Assembly: GCA_017795005.1 (NCBI GenBank)
Contig: CP051242.1
Location: 2,070,976 to 2,134,975, forward strand
Source: Balneolaceae bacterium
GTDB taxonomy: Bacteria > Bacteroidota > Rhodothermia > Balneolales > Balneolaceae
Direction: 5' to 3'
DNA length: 64,000 bases
The notes beneath the pieces were generated by a model that saw nothing but the letters and a program-made list of their open reading frames with translations, ran no database searches and was not told the DNA's origin. Below, piece by piece: positions 5,580 to 32,178 of the stretch (position 1 is the stretch's first letter; every line of letters begins with the position of its first letter). The translations under genes and the position numbers were made by a program.

Positions 5580-7841
<2,262 letters not shown>

Positions 7842-19015: not shown

Positions 19016-21376
19016 TTGAAATCTTTTGAATACATAGCAAATATTTCGGGGGATATTCTTTTCTTCTGCTCGATTAAAGGCGAATTTACTTTTGTAAATC
19101 ACTTTATGGAACGTTTGATTGGATCCAAATCTGATCAGATAATTGGAAAACATTTCACGGAATTTGTAAGCGAAGAGAAAAAAGAAGAAACAAAATCTCA
19201 CTTTACATCTATTCTCAATAATGAAAAGCAATCAGACTATTTTGAATTTCCAATAATTACTAATTCTGGTAATGAAGTCTGGGTTGGGCAAACGACAAAT
19301 CTGCTCAAAGATAAAGACGGAAATCCCGAAAGTTTTTTTGGGATAGCCAGACCTATTACTCGTCTCAGAAACGTGGAAAGTTCTCTTTCTGAAAGTGAAG
19401 CAAAGCTGCAATCCGTTATCGACTCTGCACTTGATGCAGTAATTGTAATTAATCAGAATGGCATAATTACAGAATGGAATAAACAGGCTGAAATTACTTT
19501 TGGTTGGAGCAAAGAAAGAGTTTTGGGTGAACGACTTTCAGATACAATTATTCCCAATAAGTATAGAATTGCACACGAACGGGGAATGAAACATTTCCTT
19601 AAAACGGGAGAGGGACCGGTTTTAAATCAACGCATTGAAATCACAGCCATAAACTCTTCGGGAGTTGAATTCCCGGTAGAATTAACCATTATTCCGAATC
19701 AAATTGATGGGGTTTACTTTTTTAGCTCTTTTGTTCGCGACCTAACAGAAGAGAAAAAATCAGAGCGACTCTTAAAAGCTGTTAACGAGTTGGCAATTAG
19801 TCTGCTAGGGAAGACAACGCTGGAGGAAATCGCCTGGGAAATCGCCCAAAATACGATTGATAAACTCGGTTTCGAAGATTGTGTGGTATATGTTCTTGAA
19901 GAAGAAACTCAATTGCTTCACCAAATAGCCGCATATGGACCAAAAAAAGCAGATGGTGATAAAATTGTAGACCCAATTTCAATTCCGGTTGGAAAGGGTG
20001 TTGTAGGAAGAGTAGCCAAATTAGGCGCACCAATTATTCTGGATGATACTTCTAAAGATCCGGAGTATATCATAGATGATGATATTCGGCTTTCAGAGTT
20101 GTGTGTACCCATTGTTGATGGGGAAAGGGTAATCGGAGTGATAGATTCTGAGCATAAAGAGAAAAACTTCTACACACAGGAGCATCTGGAAACGTTAACT
20201 ACGGTTGCAAATCTTGTATCTACGCAGCTGGGGAATGCTCTGGTAAATCAGCAAAAAGAAAAAGCCGAAAAATCTTTACGGGAAAGTGAAGAACGATGGT
20301 ATAAGTTGGTGGATAATCAACCAGAAGCTATTCAGATTACAGATCGTGGAAAATTAGTATATCTGAATGCAGCTGGTTTGGAACTTTACGAAGCGGATTC
20401 TATGCAGGAAATACTTGGTAAGAATCTCATTGAATTAGCAACTGGTACCTTAAAACCGGAATTTGAAAACAGACTCGAATTATTAGAAGAAGGGAAAAAA
20501 GTTCCGTCAATCGAATTTGAAATTACAACTTTCAAAGGGAATCGAAAAATCATTGAAGTGACATCAAATCCGGTTATTTATAATGGGAAAGAAGCTATCC
20601 AGACAATTGCCAGAGATGTGACTGAGAAAAAGAAAGAGGAACAGAAAAGAGAAAAGCTTTTAAATGAACTACGTGTTGTTAACGATCAACTACAGGAATT
20701 TGCTCATGTTGTTTCCCACGATTTGAAAGCTCCACTTAGAGCTATTAGTTCTTTAAGTGAATGGGTAATAGAAGATTATGCAGATAAGTTGGATGAAGAC
20801 GGTGAGAAAACATTGAATTTGATCATCGATAATGTGGAGAAAATGGATGAACTTATTGAAGGAATTCTTACGTATTCCACTTCTTCCGGAAAAGATGAAC
20901 TGGATGAAAAAATTGAAACCAATGAGCTTATTCAGACATGTATCAATAATCTGGAAGTTCCGGAATCGATATCAATTAATGTTCAGCAAAACTTTCCTAT
21001 AGTTCAGTTTAATAAGATTCAGCTTACCCAGATCTTTCAGAACCTGATTTCAAATTCCATTAAATTTATGAATAAGAATTCTGGAAATATATCTCTAAAA
21101 TGGAAAGAAGAAGCTAATAAATGGCTATTTTCAGTTTCTGATGACGGTCCGGGTATACCTGATGAGATTGGAGATACCGTTTTCGATTTATTTTCAAAAG
21201 CAGATCAAAATAGGGAAGGATCAACCGGAATCGGGTTATCTATTGTGAAGAAGATTCTCGAAAATAAGGGGCAGAAAATCTGGTTCAAAAATAACAAAGA
21301 AAAAGGAGTTACTTTTTTCTTTACTATACCAAAAAACGAATATAATGAAAGATCAGAAATCAGTTTTACTTCTTGA
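19016..21376 (+). CDS. Soluble PAS-PAS-GAF-PAS sensor histidine kinase
   Basis: 786 residues, no membrane segment, so it senses a cytoplasmic signal. Domains: PAS (about 1-110), PAS (~125-245, DSALDAVIVINQNGIITEWN), GAF (~255-410), PAS (~425-540), HisKA with phospho-acceptor His568 in VSHDLKAPLRAI, and HATPase (DDGPGIPD, GSTGIGLSIVKK). The only start available is TTG 19016; an in-frame stop lies at 18980, so the N-terminal PAS is just complete. Its stop overlaps the next receiver gene by 32 bp, indicating tight coupling. First gene of a four-gene signalling operon facing the polysaccharide genes, of which it is the likely sensor. Confidence 0.92.
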   Translation: MKSFEYIANISGDILFFCSIKGEFTFVNHFMERLIGSKSDQIIGKHFTEFVSEEKKEETKSHFTSILNNEKQSDYFEFPIITNSGNEVWVGQTTNLLKDKDGNPESFFGIARPITRLRNVESSLSESEAKLQSVIDSALDAVIVINQNGIITEWNKQAEITFGWSKERVLGERLSDTIIPNKYRIAHERGMKHFLKTGEGPVLNQRIEITAINSSGVEFPVELTIIPNQIDGVYFFSSFVRDLTEEKKSERLLKAVNELAISLLGKTTLEEIAWEIAQNTIDKLGFEDCVVYVLEEETQLLHQIAAYGPKKADGDKIVDPISIPVGKGVVGRVAKLGAPIILDDTSKDPEYIIDDDIRLSELCVPIVDGERVIGVIDSEHKEKNFYTQEHLETLTTVANLVSTQLGNALVNQQKEKAEKSLRESEERWYKLVDNQPEAIQITDRGKLVYLNAAGLELYEADSMQEILGKNLIELATGTLKPEFENRLELLEEGKKVPSIEFEITTFKGNRKIIEVTSNPVIYNGKEAIQTIARDVTEKKKEEQKREKLLNELRVVNDQLQEFAHVVSHDLKAPLRAISSLSEWVIEDYADKLDEDGEKTLNLIIDNVEKMDELIEGILTYSTSSGKDELDEKIETNELIQTCINNLEVPESISINVQQNFPIVQFNKIQLTQIFQNLISNSIKFMNKNSGNISLKWKEEANKWLFSVSDDGPGIPDEIGDTVFDLFSKADQNREGSTGIGLSIVKKILENKGQKIWFKNNKEKGVTFFFTIPKNEYNERSEISFTS

Positions 21377-21758
21377 AGACAGTGAACTTGAAATTAAAAA
21401 AGTAGAAAGGGCTTTTGATAAGCTAGGCTTTGAAAATAATCTTATTATAAAGGTAAATGGGAAAGAGGGATTAGATTGGCTCAGGGATAATAAAAACCCG
21501 CTTCCGGGATTAATTTTGCTTGATTTAAATATGCCTGTAATGGATGGATTTGAATTTCTGGAAAAAATCAAAGACGATTCTGTTCTGAAAAGGATTCCGG
21601 TTGTTATTATGACTACTTCAAAACATCCTTCAGATAAACTTAAAGGATTTGAACGGCAAGCTGCCGGCTATATGGTCAAACCAGTTAGATACAGTGATTT
21701 TCTGGATATGCTTTCAACCTTAAAACATTATTGGGAAACCAGCGAATTGGCGGATTGA
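21345..21758 (+). CDS. Single-domain response regulator (Rcp1-like)
   Basis: 137-residue stand-alone receiver. Acidic pocket ED (11-12), phospho-acceptor Asp60 in LLDLNMPVMDG, Thr in VIMTTSKHP and Lys in MVKPVRYSDF are all present. The sequence type (KDDSVLKRIPVVIMTTS) is that of the Rcp1 family that pairs with phytochrome-like multi-PAS/GAF kinases. It overlaps the kinase 3' end by 32 bp. With no output domain it probably passes phosphate onward, plausibly to the Hpt protein encoded next. Confidence 0.92.
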   Translation: MKDQKSVLLLEDSELEIKKVERAFDKLGFENNLIIKVNGKEGLDWLRDNKNPLPGLILLDLNMPVMDGFEFLEKIKDDSVLKRIPVVIMTTSKHPSDKLKGFERQAAGYMVKPVRYSDFLDMLSTLKHYWETSELAD

Positions 21759-21759
21759 A

Positions 21760-22437
21760 ATGCATATTATTTATGTGGATGATAGCGAATTTGATCAGTT
21801 AGCATTTAAACGACTGATGAGAAAAAATCAGGAGTTTTCATATTCTGTCTTTAGTTCTTTGGATGATCTTTTCAATGTCACAGTTAAACCAAATACTGTG
21901 TTAATAAGGGATTGTTACCTACCCGGAAAGATTCCTGATTACTCCATTTTTTCAGAAGTTTATTTTGTAAGTGGAAGTTCGCTGAGTTCAGGTTTGAAGT
22001 CGAAATTGAACATCGAAAACAATCATTTTTTTCAAAAACCAATTAAGCAGTCCGATTTAGATAAAATGCTCCCTAAAGAGATTGGATCTGAAAATGATTC
22101 ATCCTTAGACTTAAGTTATCTGGATGAATTGTGTGATGGGGATGAAGAATTCAAAAAAGAAATGATCTCGGTTTATTTGTCTGAGGTTCCTAACCAACTA
22201 AAGACATTGAAGGAAGCCGTGGAAAAACAGAAATCCATTGAAATTGCTTCCGTTATTCATGCGTTAAGAACAAAAATAAGAACGTTCGGAATTTTGAATG
22301 TGGATGACTTATCTGAAAAACTGGAATATTCAGCAAGAGACGAGGAAATTAAGGATTGGTTGGTGTTTGAGGAAGAAGTGGATAAACTTGTATCCGAAAT
22401 GGAAAAAACTGCAACAAAGTTGGAGCAATTGTCATGA
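21760..22437 (+). CDS. Receiver-Hpt fusion phosphotransfer protein
   Basis: 225 residues. The N-terminal ~110 form a short receiver: DD at 7-8, Asp51 in LIRDCYLPGK, Ser in YFVSGSS and Lys in FFQKPI. The C-terminal ~110 are an all-helical Hpt domain with His167 in IHALRTKIRTFGI, at the place of the usual HxLKG motif. It starts 1 bp after the receiver gene stop and overlaps the LytTR gene by 4 bp (ATGA). Its place between a kinase/receiver pair and a LytTR regulator suggests a His-Asp-His-Asp relay. The receiver is diverged, so phosphorylation at Asp51 is not certain. Confidence 0.82.
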   Translation: MHIIYVDDSEFDQLAFKRLMRKNQEFSYSVFSSLDDLFNVTVKPNTVLIRDCYLPGKIPDYSIFSEVYFVSGSSLSSGLKSKLNIENNHFFQKPIKQSDLDKMLPKEIGSENDSSLDLSYLDELCDGDEEFKKEMISVYLSEVPNQLKTLKEAVEKQKSIEIASVIHALRTKIRTFGILNVDDLSEKLEYSARDEEIKDWLVFEEEVDKLVSEMEKTATKLEQLS

Positions 22438-23117
22438 AATGTATCATCATTGACGATGAGAAAACCGCACGGTTGGCACTAAAAAAACTATGTGAAAAAA
22501 CCGGAGCAATTGAAGTAGTTAATGAGTTCGAAAATCCGGCTGATGCTCTGGCTTTTATTCATCAGAATGAGCTGGATTTTATTTTTCTTGATATTCATAT
22601 GCCTGAGCTTACAGGTTCAGAATTCGTAAAATCAGTGTCCGAACTCCCGGATGTAATCATGACAACCACCGACACAAGTTTTGCTTTAGAGGCCTTTGAG
22701 TATAATGTAATTGACTACCTGATAAAGCCAATTTCGATGCCTCGTTTTTTAAAGGCATTTGATAAATTGAAAGCGAAGAAATCAGAAAACTCGGAAGAAA
22801 TAAAGACCGATTCTATTTTTGTGAATATTAATTCAAGGTTAGTAAAACTAAACTTTGATGAAATTCAGATTATTGAGGCTAAAGGTGATTATGTGCAAAT
22901 CAAAACAGAGGATAAGAAGCATACCGTACATATTACCATGAAAAAAATTGAAGAGAAATTGCCTCCTGCTACTTTTCTTAAAGTTCACAGATCCTATATC
23001 ATTAATCTTAATAAGATTGTGGATATCGAGGATAATAGCATTTTAATTGCCGAAGAAATCATCCCAATTAGCCGTGGGAATAAAGAAACTTTGCTGAGTA
23101 AGCTAAATATGCTCTAG
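22434..23117 (+). CDS. LytTR-family response regulator
   Basis: 227 residues: receiver (1-120; DDE at 7-9, phospho-acceptor Asp53 in FLDIHMPELTG, Lys in YLIKPIS) and LytTR DNA-binding domain (~128-227; EAKGDYVQIKT, FLKVHRSYIINLNKI). LytTR proteins bind two direct repeats about two helical turns apart. Exactly such repeats precede the three following transcription units (23.14, 25.60 and 27.99 kb), the first only 19 bp after this stop codon, so this is their likely activator. Last gene of the four-gene signalling operon. Confidence 0.93.
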   Translation: MKCIIIDDEKTARLALKKLCEKTGAIEVVNEFENPADALAFIHQNELDFIFLDIHMPELTGSEFVKSVSELPDVIMTTTDTSFALEAFEYNVIDYLIKPISMPRFLKAFDKLKAKKSENSEEIKTDSIFVNINSRLVKLNFDEIQIIEAKGDYVQIKTEDKKHTVHITMKKIEEKLPPATFLKVHRSYIINLNKIVDIEDNSILIAEEIIPISRGNKETLLSKLNML

Positions 23118-23136: not shown

Positions 23137-23205
23137 CCATTCACCGACAGATACCAGCATTTCAACGAAGAATCTGATCTGAGAAGGGTATCCGGTTTAT
23201 GTTTA
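23137..23205 (+). promoter_or_regulatory. Putative LytTR operator and promoter 1 (upstream of the TolC-like gene)
   Basis: Direct repeat CCATTCACCGA (23137-23147) followed by GCATTTCAACGA (23157-23168); the shared TTCAMCGA cores are exactly 21 bp apart. A -7-like box TATGTTTA starts at 23198, 30 bp after the second repeat ends. Same architecture as the sites at 25.6 and 28.0 kb. There is no good TTG at -33, which fits an activator-dependent promoter. Confidence 0.7.
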
Positions 23206-23221
23206 AACAAAAACATACATC

Positions 23222-24493
23222 ATGAACCGGATTAACTTAATACTTATAATTACATTTCTGCTCAGTTCAAGTAGTCAAGGTCAGTACCTGATTAATGACA
23301 TATTGAATTATGGAAATGCAGAATATTCTACCACACGAGCAGAAGAATACTATACTGAAGCAGCATTAATGAGACAAAATTATGGTCTTTCATTTAATGC
23401 TTCAGCTCAACACCGTTTTGGAGAAGGCTTTATTGAAGGAGATCTAACTGAAAACAATGGGCAAACTTTTTACAAAGCAGGTGTTAGCTGGGATATCCTG
23501 AAAGGTGGTTGGTTATTCAATCAATCCAGAGCTGATCAATTCGATTTGAAAGCTCAATTGGAATCACTATCGGAACAAAAAGAAACAAAAAACAGAACGT
23601 ATTTCGCTCAGTATTCCTATTCTGCATATGTATTCGATAAATGGATACTTGATATTTATACTTCCCGCGAAAATTTTTTAAAGTCTAAAAAGCCACTTTT
23701 TAGTTCACTTACCCGGGATGGATATTTTACTAATCGTGAAAACCTGGAGCTAGATGCTCGTTTAACAGAGGTTAACTATCAAATAAAAAATTTATCGTAC
23801 TCAAATCAGGCATTCGAATCCATCTTTGGCAAACCGTTACCTGTTACAAATAAGAGTGTTTATGCAATGCCTGATATTAAGATCACGAAACTGTTAGAAG
23901 ATCTGGAAACGAGTCAGAGTTTAATATTGATAGTAAAATCAAGAAAGGAACTAAATCAACAACCGAATTTTTGGATTGAGGATGTCAGTGTAAAAGCTTC
24001 TGTTAATTACAATCATCAGGTCAGTTTTACAGATTCACGAAGAGATTTCGTTTCTGCAGGACTTACGCTTAGTATTCCGGTTTATCGGAACTATGGGATC
24101 AGAAATCAGCAATTTGCTTTGGCTAATAAGAAGATTGATGAAGAATTTGACTATGAGATTGCCAACCTGAAGAAAGAGCTATTAATGCTCTATCAGGAAT
24201 ATGCATACAAACAAAAGCAACTGGCTAATACGTATTCAACAATAGAAATCCTTGAAGAGAAGATAAGAGTTCAAACCATTCAAAAAGTAAGCGTAAACTC
24301 AGATTTACCAACTATCGATGCTTCTCTGTTAAAAGACGATTTATACTCTGTAACTATAGAGCAGCTTTCATTAAGTAAGCAGATGGTTCAATTAATTGTA
24401 AGGATGAACACTTTGATTCCAGATTCAGAAATATCAGAGTATCTGATTTATAAGCCTCAGGAATTCATGAGTTCTAACAAGGAGGTGAAGTAA
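23222..24493 (+). CDS. TolC-like outer membrane efflux/secretion protein
   Basis: 423 residues with signal peptide (MNRINLILIITFLLSSSSQG-Q). The rest has the TolC pattern: two halves rich in long amphipathic helices (e.g. residues ~295-370, KIDEEFDYEIANLKKELLML) and beta-strand pieces (FNASAQHRFGEG, VSVKASVNYNHQVSF). It would form the outer membrane channel for export with the periplasmic adaptor encoded next; the stop and the adaptor start overlap (TAATG). There is no AlgE/BcsC-type porin in the locus, so polysaccharide export through this channel is the working model. Divergent from known TolC proteins; family placement is from overall pattern. Confidence 0.75.
   Translation: MNRINLILIITFLLSSSSQGQYLINDILNYGNAEYSTTRAEEYYTEAALMRQNYGLSFNASAQHRFGEGFIEGDLTENNGQTFYKAGVSWDILKGGWLFNQSRADQFDLKAQLESLSEQKETKNRTYFAQYSYSAYVFDKWILDIYTSRENFLKSKKPLFSSLTRDGYFTNRENLELDARLTEVNYQIKNLSYSNQAFESIFGKPLPVTNKSVYAMPDIKITKLLEDLETSQSLILIVKSRKELNQQPNFWIEDVSVKASVNYNHQVSFTDSRRDFVSAGLTLSIPVYRNYGIRNQQFALANKKIDEEFDYEIANLKKELLMLYQEYAYKQKQLANTYSTIEILEEKIRVQTIQKVSVNSDLPTIDASLLKDDLYSVTIEQLSLSKQMVQLIVRMNTLIPDSEISEYLIYKPQEFMSSNKEVK
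24479..24487 (+). promoter_or_regulatory. Strong Shine-Dalgarno sequence for the HlyD-like gene
   Basis: AAGGAGGTG lies 6 bp before the ATG at 24493, a near-perfect match to the anti-SD. Such sites are rare in this lineage and in this window; it lies inside the TolC-like coding sequence and should ensure efficient reinitiation at the overlapping TAATG. Confidence 0.7.
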
Positions 24494-25530
24494 TGGAACA
24501 GTTTAGTTTTAAACAGGGAAATGCAACTATTCGCCATCTTAAAGAACCAGCGAAGCCAAAGAAAAAACTTAATACCGACCGGGTACTATTTATCATTCTT
24601 TTAGTGATCATCGCAGTGTATGGATCCTTCAAATTATACAAAGGCATTGCCGTTATTGAAATCGATGGAATGGTTACTATGGATAAACTGGAAGTTCATT
24701 TTACTGACGATATCCGGTTAAACGGACTTCAAATTGAAGAAGGAGCAAACATTCTAAAAGGTGACACACTTTTTACATACACCAATCAATATTTTGAGAA
24801 TGATGGAGCCAGCTATGCAAATGTAATTGCAAACAGAGAACGAGTAAACCGTGAAATTTTTGGACTAACACGACAGTTAAATGAAAAAAGAACTGAACGA
24901 TCAATTCTTGAAGAAAGATTAGCTTCGCAACGATTTGAACTCGAAAAAATAAGGGAATTAGTGACCCTCGCAGCCCTTACACGGCATTCTTTTGACGATC
25001 AACAACGAGCAATAGGAAAAACAGAAGATGATCTGGAACTAGTTAAAGAAAAAATCAGGTATCTGATACGCCATATTGATCAACTTGCAAAACTAAAAGC
25101 AGATTACAGCAGTTCTGCGTGGGCAGGAGGAGGATTAAGCCAAAGAAAACTGTATGTGGCCCCAACAGATGGGTTGATTGGAAGGATAAGCGTAAAAGAA
25201 AATGAAGTCTGTTATAAAGGGGATGAAGTAATGACTATTCATCAGCCCCAGGATTTACGGATACAGGCCTATTTCAACCAAAAAGAATCAGATAAAGTAC
25301 AGATCGATCGTATAGTAACGATTGAGTTCCCGGACGGAACTAAGCAAAAGGGGGTAATCAAAAAGTATTACGTTTCTACGTATGAGTTGCCTGAAGAATT
25401 CCAGAAAAAGTATGAGCCGACAGAACGGTCAATTCTGGTAGATATCATGCCATTGCATGAGGATGATCTGGACGGATGGAAGCAGTTTTATAAAATGTCG
25501 GTGAAGGTGAGTTTAGGAAGATTTTATTGA
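24493..25530 (+). CDS. HlyD/Alg44-like membrane fusion (periplasmic adaptor) protein
   Basis: 345 residues: cytoplasmic N-terminus (~30 aa), one membrane helix (about 32-50, VLFIILLVIIAVYGSF), a barrel-sandwich half (LEVHFTDDIRLNGLQIEEG), a long coiled-coil hairpin (~110-200), the second sandwich half (APTDGLIGRISVKENEVCYKG, quoted in part) and a beta-barrel domain. This is the HlyD/EmrA plan and resembles the periplasmic half of Alg44 in alginate synthesis. There is no PilZ domain, so c-di-GMP control as in Alg44 is not indicated. Operon partner of the TolC-like protein; expected to bridge the inner-membrane GT2 synthase to the outer channel. Confidence 0.82.
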   Translation: MEQFSFKQGNATIRHLKEPAKPKKKLNTDRVLFIILLVIIAVYGSFKLYKGIAVIEIDGMVTMDKLEVHFTDDIRLNGLQIEEGANILKGDTLFTYTNQYFENDGASYANVIANRERVNREIFGLTRQLNEKRTERSILEERLASQRFELEKIRELVTLAALTRHSFDDQQRAIGKTEDDLELVKEKIRYLIRHIDQLAKLKADYSSSAWAGGGLSQRKLYVAPTDGLIGRISVKENEVCYKGDEVMTIHQPQDLRIQAYFNQKESDKVQIDRIVTIEFPDGTKQKGVIKKYYVSTYELPEEFQKKYEPTERSILVDIMPLHEDDLDGWKQFYKMSVKVSLGRFY

Positions 25531-25556
25531 CCCTGGAAGAGACATATGATGTTTGT

Positions 25557-25592
25557 AAAGCCGGTTCATGGATAATGAGCCGGCTTTTTTTT
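25557..25592 (+). terminator. Rho-independent terminator after the TolC/HlyD operon
   Basis: AAAGCCGGTTCAT and ATGAGCCGGCTTT form a 13-bp stem with a 5-nt loop, followed by a T-run. It separates the HlyD-like gene from the next operator-promoter. Confidence 0.92.
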
Positions 25593-25597
25593 GCAAA

Positions 25598-25666
25598 CCA
25601 TTCATCGAAGGATTTCTTCCATTCACCGAAAAATCTGCTTTCGAGGCTTATGAAATGAGACTTTTG
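25598..25666 (+). promoter_or_regulatory. Putative LytTR operator and promoter 2 (upstream of the large lipoprotein gene)
   Basis: CCATTCATCGA (25598-25608) and CCATTCACCGA (25619-25629), again 21 bp apart. The box GACTTTTG (25659-25666) starts 30 bp after the second repeat and matches the TAnnTTTG consensus except at its first base. The spacer GGATTTC and the AATCTG three bp downstream of repeat 2 are shared with site 1. Confidence 0.75.
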
Positions 25667-25694
25667 AAGTCAATTCTTAACTAATAGGATATAA

Positions 25695-27665
25695 ATGAAA
25701 ACAAAACTAATATACACCATATTTGGGCTCAGCCTATTTGTCGGATGTGCTCCTACATTCGAAAATCAGGTTAATGAGCAGGAAGAAGAAATTCTGGTTC
25801 AGCACAACCAGGATATTCTAAATGAACGAGTTGAATATGTAAATAAACCTCTTCAACTTGATGAAGATGGAACTGCTTCTGTATTTGATCCGAATTCAAA
25901 CCTGAAATATAAAGGAACAGAATCAAACACCGTTTCCAGTTACTCAAATACAAATACTCCTGATCATACATGGTATTTTGTAGCCGAAGTGGCTCCACCT
26001 GTTTTTAATGGGCATAAGCTTAGTGCGACTCATATTCAGTTGATGGACGGGAAAGCCTATGTTTCTTACAACAAGCAGGGAGATATCCATCTTGGAGGCC
26101 TGGAAGTATTCGATCTGTCGAATAGAGCTTATCCAAAGCTGGTTAGCCAAATCCTCTTCGACCGGGCCGATGTAAATGCAATTACGGTTGATTATGAAGG
26201 AAGCGAAGCCAATAGGAAAATCTGGTTGGCATTATCTCATAAAGCTTCCGGAGCAGTACTCAGAGAAGTAGATTTGATAGACGGATTGATTTCCGAATCT
26301 GTGAAAGATGTGGAGCTTTCCGGGCTGCTGGAATCTGGGATATCAGCATCTGCTAATAGTGTAGCCCGATCCGGGAACAAACTGTATGTTACATCCGGAA
26401 AAACCTACGGAGGGACTATTACCCTGAATGTAAACTCGCTGGAAAAAATGGATGTCCAGGAGTATCCAAATGCAAAATATATCGCAGTAAATGGAATCAT
26501 TGATTACGCTTCTACTGCGGTAACATTGGTGACCGGAGACGAGGCAAAACTAAAGTTACGTCAAATTGGAAGTATCTGGAACGACCGTGAAATCAATATC
26601 GGGTCGATAAAACACCAAAACGTAGAAGCAATATACCGGGGTAAGTCAACGCTTCATTTCGCGGATTTATATCCGGGGATAGTGTACGTAGCTTTGGGAT
26701 CAGAAGGCTTAAGTGCTTACGATATCTACAGTAAAGAAAAGCTGTTTCAATCTCCTGAGAACATGCTACAAAGAGGAAACACAAACGGGGTGACGAGCGA
26801 TGATAATTATTTATATATCGCCAATGGAGCAGATGGACTTTCTGTAGCTGAATTGCCTAATTATGGTGAAAATATTGAGCCCTTTTTCTCGTGGGATTTA
26901 AATGCATTGGGTGCATCAGCAAATTACATGGAAGCTGACGGAGACTGGATATTTGTAGCAAAGGGCGGCGGCGGCCTCACCATTCTGAGAAAAGGAGACC
27001 TTGGAGAACATAAAACCATCAACGGTTATACCGCAAACGGTGTGCCTGTTGGTATGGAACCGGTAGACACACCCGTTTGTAGTGAACTACTTCCAAATAT
27101 TTATTCCACCATTCTTCCGGAACGTCAGGATCAGACAATTCTGCATCCTGAGTATTTTGAGAATCCTTACCAGGAAATTGAAGTAGAAAAGAAAACGAAA
27201 CTCTTTGTTACTTTTATTGATGAAGGAGCTGGGTACAGGAATACCTTAGGTTACTACACTTATCAAAAAGGAAATAAACCTCAGTCTGTCGAAGAACTTG
27301 ATAAGACCGTTATTTTCCCAAATGCATCCGCTCAATATTCCGGTGGCGACCTGATCCAGGGAAATACCATGAAGTTACTTGGCGAATTCGAACCCGGTAC
27401 TGTAGTAGGTTTCTATTTAATCTCAAACGGATGGAGCGGAAGTAAAATCAGTAACGGAATTTATTCACAGTATACCATCCCTGAGTTTAATGTAAGCAAT
27501 CGCCAGCAGAGTGTGCTTTTCTACGATCAGCAGTGTTCATCATTGGTAATGTCTTTTGAAGATATCGCACTTCCACAGGGCGATAAGGACTTCAATGATG
27601 CCATTTTTATGATTCAGGCCGAAGATTCCACAGCTATTGATGTCACAAAATTCATTCAGAAATAA
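25695..27665 (+). CDS. Large lipoprotein with LVIVD-like beta-propeller and C-terminal DUF4114 domain
   Basis: 656 residues. Lipobox LFVGC gives a lipidated Cys18. Residues ~85-440 contain LVIVD-like/propeller repeats (LEVFDLSNRAYPKLV, YVALGSEGLSAYDIYSKE, WIFVAKGGGGLTILRKG). The C-terminal ~170 residues (TKLFVTFIDEGAGYRNTLGY through FEDIALPQGDKDFNDAIFMI) match DUF4114, a domain of surface and matrix proteins with a conserved acidic, possibly Ca2+-binding end. It has its own operator-promoter and terminator and lies between export and synthesis genes. Probably an envelope or surface protein that interacts with the exported polymer; no enzymatic residues recognised. Confidence 0.8.
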   Translation: MKTKLIYTIFGLSLFVGCAPTFENQVNEQEEEILVQHNQDILNERVEYVNKPLQLDEDGTASVFDPNSNLKYKGTESNTVSSYSNTNTPDHTWYFVAEVAPPVFNGHKLSATHIQLMDGKAYVSYNKQGDIHLGGLEVFDLSNRAYPKLVSQILFDRADVNAITVDYEGSEANRKIWLALSHKASGAVLREVDLIDGLISESVKDVELSGLLESGISASANSVARSGNKLYVTSGKTYGGTITLNVNSLEKMDVQEYPNAKYIAVNGIIDYASTAVTLVTGDEAKLKLRQIGSIWNDREINIGSIKHQNVEAIYRGKSTLHFADLYPGIVYVALGSEGLSAYDIYSKEKLFQSPENMLQRGNTNGVTSDDNYLYIANGADGLSVAELPNYGENIEPFFSWDLNALGASANYMEADGDWIFVAKGGGGLTILRKGDLGEHKTINGYTANGVPVGMEPVDTPVCSELLPNIYSTILPERQDQTILHPEYFENPYQEIEVEKKTKLFVTFIDEGAGYRNTLGYYTYQKGNKPQSVEELDKTVIFPNASAQYSGGDLIQGNTMKLLGEFEPGTVVGFYLISNGWSGSKISNGIYSQYTIPEFNVSNRQQSVLFYDQQCSSLVMSFEDIALPQGDKDFNDAIFMIQAEDSTAIDVTKFIQK

Positions 27666-27685
27666 TTGACATCTATAAACACATT

Positions 27686-27719
27686 AAAGCCGGTTTGAGA
27701 ATATCAGTCCGGCTTTTTT
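27686..27719 (+). terminator. Rho-independent terminator after the lipoprotein gene
   Basis: AAAGCCGG ... CCGGCTTTTTT, an 8-bp GC-rich stem with a 14-nt loop and a T-run, 20 bp after the stop codon. Confidence 0.9.
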
Positions 27720-27731
27720 GTGTGATTGTGT

Positions 27732-27953
27732 TTTTAAATAGCCCCCAGATTTATCCGGGGGTATCTATATGTTAGAAAATAAACCCAAGTCTCATTCTTT
27801 GTACAACGGCGAAAGGATTTCGTAGGGTTGGCATCCATTGTCGCGTTATAGTCATCCCCTTCGATTCTGATTTTTGCTTCTATTTAAACGAGAGACTCGG
27901 GGTGCGTGGAATCCGTAAGGTTACCCCGGGATAAATCCCGGGGCTATTTAAAA
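27732..27953. mobile_element. 222-bp MITE-like element with 31-bp terminal inverted repeats
   Basis: The first 31 bp (starting TTTTAAATAGCCCC) and the last 31 bp (ending GGGGCTATTTAAAA) are inverted repeats with 28 of 31 positions identical; each end is also internally near-palindromic (CCCGGGATTTATCCCGGG in the right copy). The interior has no ORF. No target duplication is obvious. It sits between the lipoprotein terminator and the third operator and explains most of the 435-bp gap between genes (27666-28100). Confidence 0.8.
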
Positions 27954-27993
27954 GCATTTTACACCACCAAAACAAAGAATCTCACCATTCAAA

Positions 27994-28062
27994 CCATTCA
28001 CCGACAGATTCTTTCCATTCGTCGATAATATCTCAAAAAGGCTGAATCTGTGAGTAGATTTG
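27994..28062 (+). promoter_or_regulatory. Putative LytTR operator and promoter 3 (upstream of the nucleotide-sugar dehydrogenase operon)
   Basis: CCATTCACCGA (27994-28004) and CCATTCGTCGA (28015-28025), 21 bp apart. A perfect TAnnTTTG -7 box, TAGATTTG, occupies 28055-28062, starting 30 bp after the second repeat exactly as in sites 1 and 2. An extra CCATTCA half-site lies at 27985. Confidence 0.78.
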
Positions 28063-28100: not shown

Positions 28101-29468
28101 ATGAACAACACAGCAAAAAAACTAGATGTAATTCAATCTGAAGCGCCTGCGTTAAGATTGATCAAACACGACAACAACATTTATTCAAGACTGGCTCTTG
28201 GAGAAGCGAAAATGGCTATGGTAGGACTTGGATATGTAGGATTACCTATTGCTCTTGAATTCGCAAATAACTTCAACGTAATCGGTTTTGATATCAATGA
28301 AGAACGCGTTGATATGATGAAAGAAGGAATCGATCCTTCTAAAGAATTATCCAGCGAAGCATTTGAAAATAAAAACATCAAATTCACTGCTAAAATAAAT
28401 CAAATTGCCGAAGCGGAATTTTATGTAGTAGCCGTTCCAACTCCCATTGATGAACGAAGAGAACCAAATTTAACTCCACTTAAAAAAGCAACCGCAAGTG
28501 TAGCTGAAGTACTTAAGAAAGGAGATTATGTGGTATTTGAATCTACTGTTTACCCGGGCTGTACAGAAGAGGTATGTGTACCGATTCTTGAAAGAATTTC
28601 CGGACTTACTTTTAACGAAGATTTCAAAGTTGGGTATTCACCGGAAAGAATCAATCCGGGCGATAAAGTACATACGGTAACAAATATTACTAAAGTAGTA
28701 TCCGGTAGTGACGAAGAGTCTTTAGAACAGATTGCGAAAGTTTACGAAAGCATAATTACAGCTGGTATTCATAAAGCTGCAAGTATGAAAGTAGCTGAAG
28801 CTTCTAAAATCATCGAAAACACTCAACGTGATGTTAACATTGCGCTTATGAATGAACTTTCCTTGATTTTTGACAAACTTGACATCGATACTAATGCAGT
28901 ACTCGAAGCTGCAGGTACAAAATGGAATTTCCTGAAGTTCTTCCCAGGATTAGTAGGCGGTCACTGTATCGGTGTGGATCCTTACTACCTTGCTTATAAA
29001 GCAAAACAAGTAAAAGTAGACCCACGAGTTATTTCAAGCTCACGATTTATAAACGATGGAATGCCTTATAACATCGCATTTAAAATTTCAAGAGAATTGG
29101 AAAAACTAGGTAAAGACCCAAAAGCTTCTACTGTACTTGTGAAAGGAATAACGTTCAAAGAAAATGTAAGTGACATCAGAAATTCAAAAGTAGCTGATGT
29201 AGTTAAAAAACTTGAACTATTCGGCATCAAAAGTTGGGTTGAAGATCCGCATGCTGATGGTGAAGAAGTTTATAATGAATATGGAATCAGATGTGAGAAA
29301 GAACATCAAGGAAAGTTTGATGTGGTAATCATGGCGGTTGCGCATGACGAATACAACGAACTTGATGCTGACTACTTCAACACGATCTCTTATTCAGATA
29401 CCATCTTTTATGATGTGCGCGGAATGATCAAAGATAAAGTGAACCACGGGACTTACTTAAGCCTCTAA
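28101..29468 (+). CDS. Nucleotide-sugar dehydrogenase (UDP-GlcNAc/UDP-glucose 6-dehydrogenase family, TviB-like)
   Basis: Oxidises C6 of a nucleotide sugar to a uronic acid with two NAD+. 455 residues: NAD-binding Rossmann domain with GLGYVGLPIALEFA, central helical domain, and C-terminal UDP-binding domain. The catalytic Cys289 is in VGGHCIGVDPYYLAYKA; GITFKENVSDIRNSK is the C-terminal substrate signature. The sequence style (VAVPTPIDE, YSPERINPGDK) fits the TviB/WbpA UDP-HexNAc dehydrogenases rather than UDP-glucose dehydrogenases, but the substrate cannot be fixed. First gene of the third operon; it implies that the exported polymer contains uronic acid. Confidence 0.92.
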   Translation: MNNTAKKLDVIQSEAPALRLIKHDNNIYSRLALGEAKMAMVGLGYVGLPIALEFANNFNVIGFDINEERVDMMKEGIDPSKELSSEAFENKNIKFTAKINQIAEAEFYVVAVPTPIDERREPNLTPLKKATASVAEVLKKGDYVVFESTVYPGCTEEVCVPILERISGLTFNEDFKVGYSPERINPGDKVHTVTNITKVVSGSDEESLEQIAKVYESIITAGIHKAASMKVAEASKIIENTQRDVNIALMNELSLIFDKLDIDTNAVLEAAGTKWNFLKFFPGLVGGHCIGVDPYYLAYKAKQVKVDPRVISSSRFINDGMPYNIAFKISRELEKLGKDPKASTVLVKGITFKENVSDIRNSKVADVVKKLELFGIKSWVEDPHADGEEVYNEYGIRCEKEHQGKFDVVIMAVAHDEYNELDADYFNTISYSDTIFYDVRGMIKDKVNHGTYLSL

Positions 29469-29498
29469 GCTGAAGCTTTAGCCTGAACGGTGAACGTC

Positions 29499-30875
29499 AT
29501 GTTTGAACTCATACAACATCCAAACTCTTCTTCCAAAACTCTGAGCTTTGATAACGAAAGCCTGAACGTGGTTGTTATCAACAGGGTAGGAGAGTTGGAT
29601 GTTGATTCGTTGCAGAATGCGGATGCACTCTTGATTCAAACTACGACAAGTCACGACGCTAACGAACTTATCCGATCCATCAGATCAAACAGAAACAGAT
29701 TAAAAGCTTTAATTCCTGTTTTCATAAGTTCAACCGTTTCAAATCTTCAAAGTATCCGGTATCAGTTTGATGGTGTTTTTTCGGACGATACCAAAGAGAT
29801 ACTTCTTCAAAGATTGAAGGCCATAAAATCAAGATTGGCTGAAATGAATTACGAAATTCATCAACTTGATTACCATCAGTCTTTACTACAATCTGCACTT
29901 CAATTTGCTTACTCAAGAGAACAAGTATTCGAACCCGTAAGAAACAGATTTTCCAAGATCGGGTTCTCTTACCCATTCTTAGGTGCAATTCTTAAAGAGG
30001 AAGAAGCTAACAGAGTACTTGAGATTCTGAATATATCCTGCACAGAAGGGTATACCACTAAAAAAGCTATAGAAAAGACTCATACGTGCAAAAAGTGCTC
30101 CGGAGGATATCTTAACTACAGAGAATGTTGTCCTAAATGTGGTTCATCAGATCTTAAAACGGAAGATTTAATTCATCACTTTTTATGCGCACATATTGCA
30201 CCGGAACAAGATTATAAAAAAGAAGATACACTTGAATGTCCGAAGTGTGATAAAGAGTTACGCCATATTGGGATTGATTACGACAAACCATCCAGTATGC
30301 ATACTTGTAACGATTGCTCCCACTCATTCCAACAGGCAGAAGTAAAAGCTTTATGTATCGACTGCGGACATGATAACGAACTTTCTCAGTTAGGAAGCCT
30401 CGAAATCGGAGCGTACGAACTTACTCCTCACGGCGAGCAAATTGCCAAATTTGGATTGCATATTCAGAAAACAGAAACAACCTCTAAAGAAATTCATACC
30501 GTTTCCGTACAAATTCTGGAGCTCTTCAAGAAACAAGAGCTTTCCAGAGAACAATTAGAAAAGCAATGCTGGGAAGGTTCAGTTCGGATTCATCCTGAAA
30601 TAATGAGTCATTTCCACATAGAACAACAGGAAATCATTCAGAAAGAAATCTGCACTATCATCTCGAAGTATCTTGGTAAAGCGGATGTATTATCCAGCCC
30701 GAACACAACCTGGTATCGTTTTTTGGTGTACGATAAGAGTCCTGAGAACATTGAAAAAACAGGTAGTATCATCCAGAATAATATCTCCAAGCTTATAACA
30801 GACGGAATAGGTGAGTATGAACATCCGGCAGAGGTTTTAATTACCAAACTGGATAACGGAGTAGATCATGTTTGA
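29499..30875 (+). CDS. Zinc-ribbon protein, TackOD1-like, with N-terminal receiver-like domain
   Basis: 458 residues from ATG 29499 (a GTG three codons upstream, at 29490, is an alternative). The first ~115 residues alternate beta/alpha like a receiver (DALLIQTTTSHD, LIPVFISSTVS, YQFDGVFSDD) but lack the phosphorylation site. The centre has paired cysteines, CKKC (197-200), CPKC (211-214), CPKC (247-250), CNDC (270-273) and CIDC (286-289), at least two zinc ribbons, resembling the TackOD1 output domain. The last ~140 residues are helical and may bind nucleic acid or protein. It overlaps the GT2 gene by 8 bp, so it is probably an obligatory partner or regulator of polymer synthesis. TackOD1 is recalled from pattern; confirm by HMM. 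Confidence 0.72.
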   Translation: MFELIQHPNSSSKTLSFDNESLNVVVINRVGELDVDSLQNADALLIQTTTSHDANELIRSIRSNRNRLKALIPVFISSTVSNLQSIRYQFDGVFSDDTKEILLQRLKAIKSRLAEMNYEIHQLDYHQSLLQSALQFAYSREQVFEPVRNRFSKIGFSYPFLGAILKEEEANRVLEILNISCTEGYTTKKAIEKTHTCKKCSGGYLNYRECCPKCGSSDLKTEDLIHHFLCAHIAPEQDYKKEDTLECPKCDKELRHIGIDYDKPSSMHTCNDCSHSFQQAEVKALCIDCGHDNELSQLGSLEIGAYELTPHGEQIAKFGLHIQKTETTSKEIHTVSVQILELFKKQELSREQLEKQCWEGSVRIHPEIMSHFHIEQQEIIQKEICTIISKYLGKADVLSSPNTTWYRFLVYDKSPENIEKTGSIIQNNISKLITDGIGEYEHPAEVLITKLDNGVDHV

Positions 30876-32178
30876 ACAACTTGCTCCGGAATACGTTGAA
30901 TATTGGTTTGTGGTAGGCTTCAACAAATTCCTTCGTGTATTCTGGTATTTCTGTCTGTTTGAATTTACCCGGTATATAATCATCGATTATATAATCGTGT
31001 TCTTTAAATGGCTGACCAGGAAAAGCGATGATGAACAATTCGAGCAAGCCCGCAGAGCCTTTTTTCTTGAAAATCCATTGGTTTCTATCATTATTCCGGG
31101 AAAGAATGAAGGCGCTCATCTTTTCAAGCTTACTAAATCTTTGGCCGAACAAACCTATCAGAATTTTGAGCTTATTATTGTTGATGATGGCTCGGACGAT
31201 GAAACTCCTATCATCGGCAAAAACCTCGAGCGACTCGGACTCATTGATATGTTTATCCGGAATGAGATAAGAGGAGGGAAGGCTTCGGCAGCAAATCTGG
31301 CCTTACGTTATGCTAAAGGAAAGTACATTGTTCACCTTGATGCCGATTGTTCCTTCGACAGAGACGCGATTGAGCGTGTGGTGATTCCATTCTACTACGA
31401 TGAAAAAATCGGAGCAGTAGGTGGAAACGTGAAAGTGCGAAATTACAATGATTCTTTATGTACCAGCTTACAGGCCATTGAGTATTTAAAAACAGTTTCT
31501 GTGGGGCGAATTATCACTTCCTATCTGGGTATTTACAAAATTGTATCCGGTGCATTTGGAGCTTTTAAACCGGAAATTCTGGATAGAATTGGTGGTTGGG
31601 ATATTGGCCCGGGCTTGGATGGAGATATCACAGTTAAGATTCGAAAATGTGGATATAAAATTCACTTTGAACCCAAAGCTATTTGTCTGACCAATGCTCC
31701 TTCAAAATTTAAAGTATTGACCAAGCAACGCTTACGATGGGATAAATCTATCATTCGATTCAGAGTTCGTAAACACCGGGATGTGTATTTCCCTCATGCC
31801 AATTTTAACTGGTCGAATTTCTTTGCGCTGTTCGAAAATGTATTCTACAACGTGATTCTGGATTTGATGTGGATCCTGTACATGATTGACATTCTGTTTA
31901 ATTACACCTCATCGTTACAGTATATCATCCCAATGAACTTCACACTCTATGTTGTAATGAGCTATGTACAAATGGGAAGCATTCTTTTATTCACCGAGCG
32001 CAGAAAAGAAGAGATGAAGCTGATTAAGTTTATTCCGCTGATGACCATTTACACCGGGATTTATCTGCGCTTAGTCCGAACGACTGCCTACTACAAAGAA
32101 TTCTTCTTCAAACACTCCTACGAAGATGTCTGGAACCCTTCGAAATCTTCGACTATGGCGAAGAGGTATGGTCTTTGA
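30868..32178 (+). CDS. Membrane GT2 polysaccharide synthase (processive)
   Basis: 436 residues: N-terminal membrane helix (~22-48), cytoplasmic GT-A domain, and three or four C-terminal helices (~322-345, 352-376, 387-405). Catalytic motifs of processive beta-glycan synthases (BcsA, PgaC, Alg8) are complete: VDDGSDD (105-111), DAD (158-160), a GLDGDIT acidic site (249-255) and QRLRW (287-291). There is no PilZ domain. Its start lies inside the stop of the Zn-ribbon gene, and the operon also carries the sugar dehydrogenase. It should polymerise the uronic acid-containing chain and push it into the periplasm toward the HlyD/TolC pair. Confidence 0.92.
   Translation: MFEQLAPEYVEYWFVVGFNKFLRVFWYFCLFEFTRYIIIDYIIVFFKWLTRKSDDEQFEQARRAFFLENPLVSIIIPGKNEGAHLFKLTKSLAEQTYQNFELIIVDDGSDDETPIIGKNLERLGLIDMFIRNEIRGGKASAANLALRYAKGKYIVHLDADCSFDRDAIERVVIPFYYDEKIGAVGGNVKVRNYNDSLCTSLQAIEYLKTVSVGRIITSYLGIYKIVSGAFGAFKPEILDRIGGWDIGPGLDGDITVKIRKCGYKIHFEPKAICLTNAPSKFKVLTKQRLRWDKSIIRFRVRKHRDVYFPHANFNWSNFFALFENVFYNVILDLMWILYMIDILFNYTSSLQYIIPMNFTLYVVMSYVQMGSILLFTERRKEEMKLIKFIPLMTIYTGIYLRLVRTTAYYKEFFFKHSYEDVWNPSKSSTMAKRYGL

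Follow-up and report, generated by a model that had tools for sequence, protein, structure and literature searches.

Three paired direct repeats as predicted LytTR operators of a polysaccharide locus in a Balneolaceae bacterium

The genome of this Balneolaceae species (G000; 3.75 Mb, a single contig) contains, within the stretch of 64,000 nucleotides that we analysed (the window), three pairs of 11-bp direct repeats of the type CCATTCAYCGA, with a 10-bp spacer and a 21-bp period, which are located in three intergenic regions of a polysaccharide locus (Table 1). These repeats very probably serve as operators for the adjacent REC-LytTR response regulator, which would be fed by a phosphorelay and would activate three transcription units together. 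That one adjacent LytTR regulator serves all three units had been proposed from the DNA of the window alone (the sequence-only reading), and this proposal is supported by comparative evidence and in all likelihood holds.

Table 1. Predicted features of the locus (positions within the window)
Feature	Position	Strand	Basis or remark
Sensor histidine kinase, PAS-PAS-GAF-PAS-HisKA-HATPase	19016..21376	+	Pfam; H-box SHDLKAPLR
Stand-alone receiver (REC) protein	21345..21758	+	Pfam; phospho-acceptor Asp conserved (alignment)
Hpt phosphotransfer protein, N-terminal part receiver-like	21760..22437	+	Pfam; conserved His in HALRTKIRTFG
REC-LytTR response regulator, proposed regulator	22434..23117	+	PF04397 E 8.9e-21, PF00072
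Operator 1, CCATTCACCGA-N10-CATTTCAACGA	23137..23168	+	half-sites 23137-23147, 23158-23168
-7-like box TATGTTTA, OEP-HlyD unit	23198..23205	+	
Outer-membrane efflux-type (OEP) protein	23222..24493	+	Pfam
HlyD-type membrane-fusion protein	24493..25530	+	Pfam
Terminator-like hairpin ending OEP-HlyD unit, just before operator 2	25557..25587	+	13 pairs, T tract
Operator 2, CCATTCATCGA-N10-CCATTCACCGA	25598..25629	+	half-sites 25598-25608, 25619-25629
-7-like box GACTTTTG, DUF4114 unit	25659..25666	+	
Lipoprotein, LFVGC lipobox, C-terminal DUF4114	25695..27665	+	Pfam; sequence
Operator 3, CCATTCACCGA-N10-CCATTCGTCGA	27994..28025	+	half-sites 27994-28004, 28015-28025
-7-like box TAGATTTG, dehydrogenase unit	28055..28062	+	
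Nucleotide-sugar dehydrogenase	28101..29468	+	nearest NCBIfam model TviB (UDP-GlcNAc C-6 dehydrogenase), below its cut-off
TackOD1 protein, N-terminal receiver degenerate	29490..30875	+	PF18551 E 2.2e-51; alignment
Membrane GT2 glycosyltransferase, PgaC/IcaA- and NodC-like	30868..32178	+	below those models' cut-offs

Direct reading of the DNA bore out the geometry described in the sequence-only reading: the TTCAYCGA cores lie 21 bp apart at all three sites, each of them has a -7-like box that begins exactly 30 bp past the end of the second repeat, and the LytTR gene ends 19 bp before site 1, with its stop codon ending at 23117. The repeat positions also stood, except that the second half-site of operator 1 starts at 23158, one base off the 23157 given there. 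The best TAnnTTTG match was sought in the 55 bp downstream of the second half-site at 11 promoters, and all three -7-like boxes of the window are the top match in their region. The second half-site of operator 1 and the -7 boxes of promoter 2 are degenerate; in the window, GACTTTTG agrees with the TAnnTTTG consensus at five of the six fixed positions. The congeners G039 and G040 do not share the additional CCATTCA that precedes operator 3 in the window (27985). Sigma-70 consensus promoters were no commoner than in shuffled sequence and were left out of the analysis.

A sequence scan found no TTG in the -33 area of these promoters, which fits activator-dependent promoters. If the -7 box is taken at -12 to -5, where it has been placed in flavobacteria (PMC9723704), the operators cover about -73 to -42 and end shortly before the -33 region. 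Taken alone, this position would be compatible also with the adjacent LytTR protein acting as a repressor of the three promoters; repression is nevertheless quite improbable, as the operators, which stop 29 bp short of the -7 box, leave the core promoter free, as the promoters lack the TTG, and as characterised LytTR sites just upstream of the -35 element activate (PMC6193735). Activation by the LytTR regulator is most likely, judging from the position of the sites and from published LytTR promoters.

In their full form, the repeats are specific to this locus. Searching for TTCAYCGA-N13-TTCAYCGA with at most one mismatch, we found three matches in the window, compared to a mean of 0.017 (maximum 1) in 60 dinucleotide-Markov copies. 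The full operator motif (CCATTCAYCGA-N10-CCATTCAYCGA, up to 3 mismatches, with the reversed pattern as control) matches these three sites and no others in the whole genome (control 0). A looser core motif (up to 2 mismatches) gave 25 matches in the genome past the best four, nearly all of them within reading frames and noise-like. Two individual matches were set aside, C1:2157349 because it lies inside an ORF and C1:2454100 because the scan shows neither an ORF covering it nor an ORF start close by. In other genomes, the matches in G068 (C49) and G004 both lie within reading frames, and those in G094 represent a tandem repeat of the half-site.

A protein search identified Balneolaceae MAG HXMU1428-16 and Rhodohalobacter sulfatireducens WB101 as close relatives, and the locus was compared with that of the two congeners and of R. 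sulfatireducens (G068, locus L055). G039 and G040 each contain exactly three full-motif matches (up to 3 mismatches; control 0), and these are located at the same three promoters, between the LytTR and OEP genes, the HlyD and DUF4114 genes, and the DUF4114 and dehydrogenase genes. In R. sulfatireducens the DUF4114 gene and operator 2 are both absent, and the two remaining promoters have recognisable operators, one of which exceeds 3 mismatches. In the two congeners the half-sites are 82-97% identical, whereas identity in the upstream 60 bp is 24-56%. When G039 is set against the window, the half-sites reach 88% and 82%, the -7 box 79%, the spacer between the half-sites 50% and the upstream 60 bp only 24%. 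The lengths of the intergenic regions vary widely (about 115 vs 319 bp; 444 vs 200 and 497 bp), which indicates that operator and promoter are kept together as a unit.

The -7 box is nearly constant in its distance: the best match is found at +30 in 8 of the 11 promoters, at +31 once (promoter 1 of G068, TATGTTTA) and at +28 once (promoter 2 of G039, counted by eye on the sequence), and in promoter 2 of G040 the box at +30 is second best, with a better match at 37. At the same distance as in the window, promoter 1 has TATGTTTG in G040 and TAGCTTTG in G039, and promoter 3 has TAAGTTTG in G040, TAGATTTG in G039 and TAGATTAC in G068. The prediction that orthologous loci would conserve the repeats thus held for operators, 21-bp period and promoter box in both congeners, and for the two applicable operators in R. 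sulfatireducens. It is hardly conceivable that the repeats arose by chance or belong to a shared non-regulatory element such as the residue of a dispersed repeat; intergenic repeats do exist in this region, for example an inverted-repeat element at 27729-27956, but the number of matches in the window far exceeds the chance expectation, all three positions are kept across species despite diverged flanks, the half-sites are conserved above these flanks, and the full motif has no further copies in the genome.

The genes upstream of that for the REC-LytTR protein encode a histidine kinase with PAS and GAF domains, which is predicted to be soluble, a stand-alone receiver and an Hpt protein; the real start of the kinase may lie downstream of the annotated TTG. 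The kinase H-box is intact in the window protein, and the REC Asp, the Hpt His and the Asp of the LytTR receiver are conserved across four orthologs. Phosphate would pass from the kinase to the stand-alone receiver, then to Hpt and finally to the LytTR receiver, a path which is likely according to the gene order. A LytTR dimer would then contact the two half-sites, which the 21-bp period (two helical turns) would place on the same face of the DNA, and would recruit RNA polymerase to promoters without a recognisable TTG at -33, so that the OEP-HlyD export components, the DUF4114 surface lipoprotein and the dehydrogenase-TackOD1-GT2 synthase would be switched on together. No motif match was found upstream of 19016.

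All four genomes with the locus have the adjacent REC-LytTR gene in synteny, and among them its product hardly varies in the C-terminal DNA-binding stretch, which differs from that of a paralogue. The genome encodes 10 LytTR proteins, and a second operon for a lipoprotein, a His_kinase and a LytTR protein at C1:530.2-532.7 kb (L056:5221-7685, minus strand) has an operator of the same class, TTCACCGA-N13-TTCATCGA, at its own promoter. This operon is kept in at least five other Balneolaceae genomes, including other genera, and TTTCTTTG is found exactly at +30 in G000, G039, G002, G024, G025 and G026, and TAACTTTG at +29 in G035. As operator and geometry recur there, the motif is tied to LytTR regulators by evidence from outside the polysaccharide locus. 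Since at least one of the 10 LytTR proteins has a closely similar operator, cross-binding is possible, and another LytTR protein, above all the one of this His_kinase-LytTR pair, whose operon shares the box at +30, might be the main or an additional binder of the three sites. We consider this unlikely for several reasons. G040 and G068 retain the operators although neither encodes a close ortholog of the paralogue (their best matches share 50% and 41% identity), and genomes which encode the paralogue but lack the polysaccharide locus contain a single operator, located at the promoter of that LytTR itself. In addition, the two sets of operators differ in flanks and spacers, with CCA...CGA-NRGAT at the polysaccharide locus and GAAAA-type spacers at the second operon. 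Synteny, conserved operators and their retention in genomes without the paralogue together make the adjacent LytTR protein the most likely regulator.

Other LytTR loci were searched for repeats with a 21-bp period followed by a -7 box, and this yielded a single weak candidate, in L038, a further LytTR locus of the genome. There, at about 1442 of the reverse complement, a repeat (TGAATGGTACA / TGAATGGAACA, 10 of 11 bases) lies 32 bp before a CAATTTTG box and forms a candidate operator whose half-site differs from the CCATTCAYCGA type. In G098, a genome from a different family of the order, the gene for a REC-LytTR protein (L123, reverse complement 6139-6872) is followed within 20 bp by a putative operator, TCATTCGTCGA-N10-GCATTCATCGA, and then by a 660-aa ORF, the same arrangement as at site 1 of the window.

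The putative terminator before operator 2 (Table 1) and a second hairpin (GCCGG...CCGGC with a T tract, at about 27687-27719) before operator 3 are consistent with three separate units; the second hairpin was noticed by eye and is absent from the scan list. The inverted-repeat element mentioned above is about 228 bp long, has 35-nt inverted ends (89% complementary) and lies past the end of the DUF4114 gene, ahead of operator 3. A segment of it is found again at C1:3230658 (80% over 96 bp), and the element seems to be missing in G040, where the intergenic region measures 200 bp instead of 444. A reasonable guess for the product of the locus is a synthase-dependent polysaccharide with an amino-uronic acid; it is a guess because the matches of the enzymes fall below the cut-offs of the specific models. 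A PDB search with the dehydrogenase returned nothing at the very strict threshold of E 1e-60.

In archaeal response regulators, TackOD1 has been described as an output domain, and it occurs also in some bacteria (PMC5847659). In sister polysaccharide loci of other Balneolaceae (L060-L068), TackOD1 is fused to an intact receiver (REC-TackOD1), and LytTR operators are lacking. In the second TackOD1-GT2 locus of R. sulfatireducens, neither an operator nor a LytTR DNA-binding domain was found. The degenerate receiver of the TackOD1 protein described here, as opposed to the intact ones of the sister loci, might reflect a shift from post-translational to transcriptional control. We tentatively suggest, as a rather speculative scenario, that a dedicated three-promoter regulon for an amino-uronate-type polysaccharide, fed by the HK-REC-Hpt-LytTR path, replaced the post-translational control of the sister REC-TackOD1 loci.

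The predicted switch is of a known kind, as repeat length, spacing and promoter position match those of published LytTR operators, which consist of 9-11-nt repeats with 11-13-bp spacers (PMC4847170). The operators of AgrA, ComE, VirR, YpdB and HdrR/BrsR are likewise pairs of 9-11-bp direct repeats spaced by about two helical turns, which lie just upstream of the core promoter and are read by a LytTR protein, as predicted here. In contrast to these systems, the sites described here have a CCATTCAYCGA half-site, occur as three copies in one locus at TAnnTTTG promoters, and are predicted to receive their input from a phosphorelay instead of a LytS-type kinase. Published LytTR sites have been placed about 10 bp upstream of the -35 element (PMC6193735). 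Those of the LRS-like operons of Bacteroides consist of 11-bp direct repeats as well, with spacers of 11 bp compared to 10 bp here, and are located about 11 bp upstream of the promoter; these operons are proposed to be autoregulatory, with membrane-bound regulators (PMC6193735). Here, by contrast, the regulator is a predicted soluble response regulator with sites downstream of its own gene, and its neighbours are a kinase, a REC protein and an Hpt protein, which differs from the operator at its own operon and the membrane inhibitor that characterise an LRS. A further parallel is AlgR at algD of Pseudomonas, a LytTR response regulator which, as predicted for the regulator of our locus, controls polysaccharide genes as well as one for a nucleotide-sugar dehydrogenase. 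Its core site CCGTTCGTC resembles CCATTCRYC, a likeness that may be convergent; AlgR sites are single and distant (-470, -394) or inverted (-45), whereas those described here are direct repeats in pairs, close to the promoter and at a fixed distance from it (PMC4064291).

Our literature search found no account of this instance, of its three-site regulon or of its phosphorelay input, and no paper on LytTR regulators in this bacterial group. For a LytTR regulator of the Balneolaceae, the analysis provides a predicted operator, a promoter geometry and a complete predicted regulon, and it would connect an uncharacterised polysaccharide locus (TackOD1-GT2-HlyD-OEP) with a phosphorelay. Two separate LytTR systems share the constant +30 geometry, which may serve as a rule for finding further LytTR regulons in Balneolaceae.
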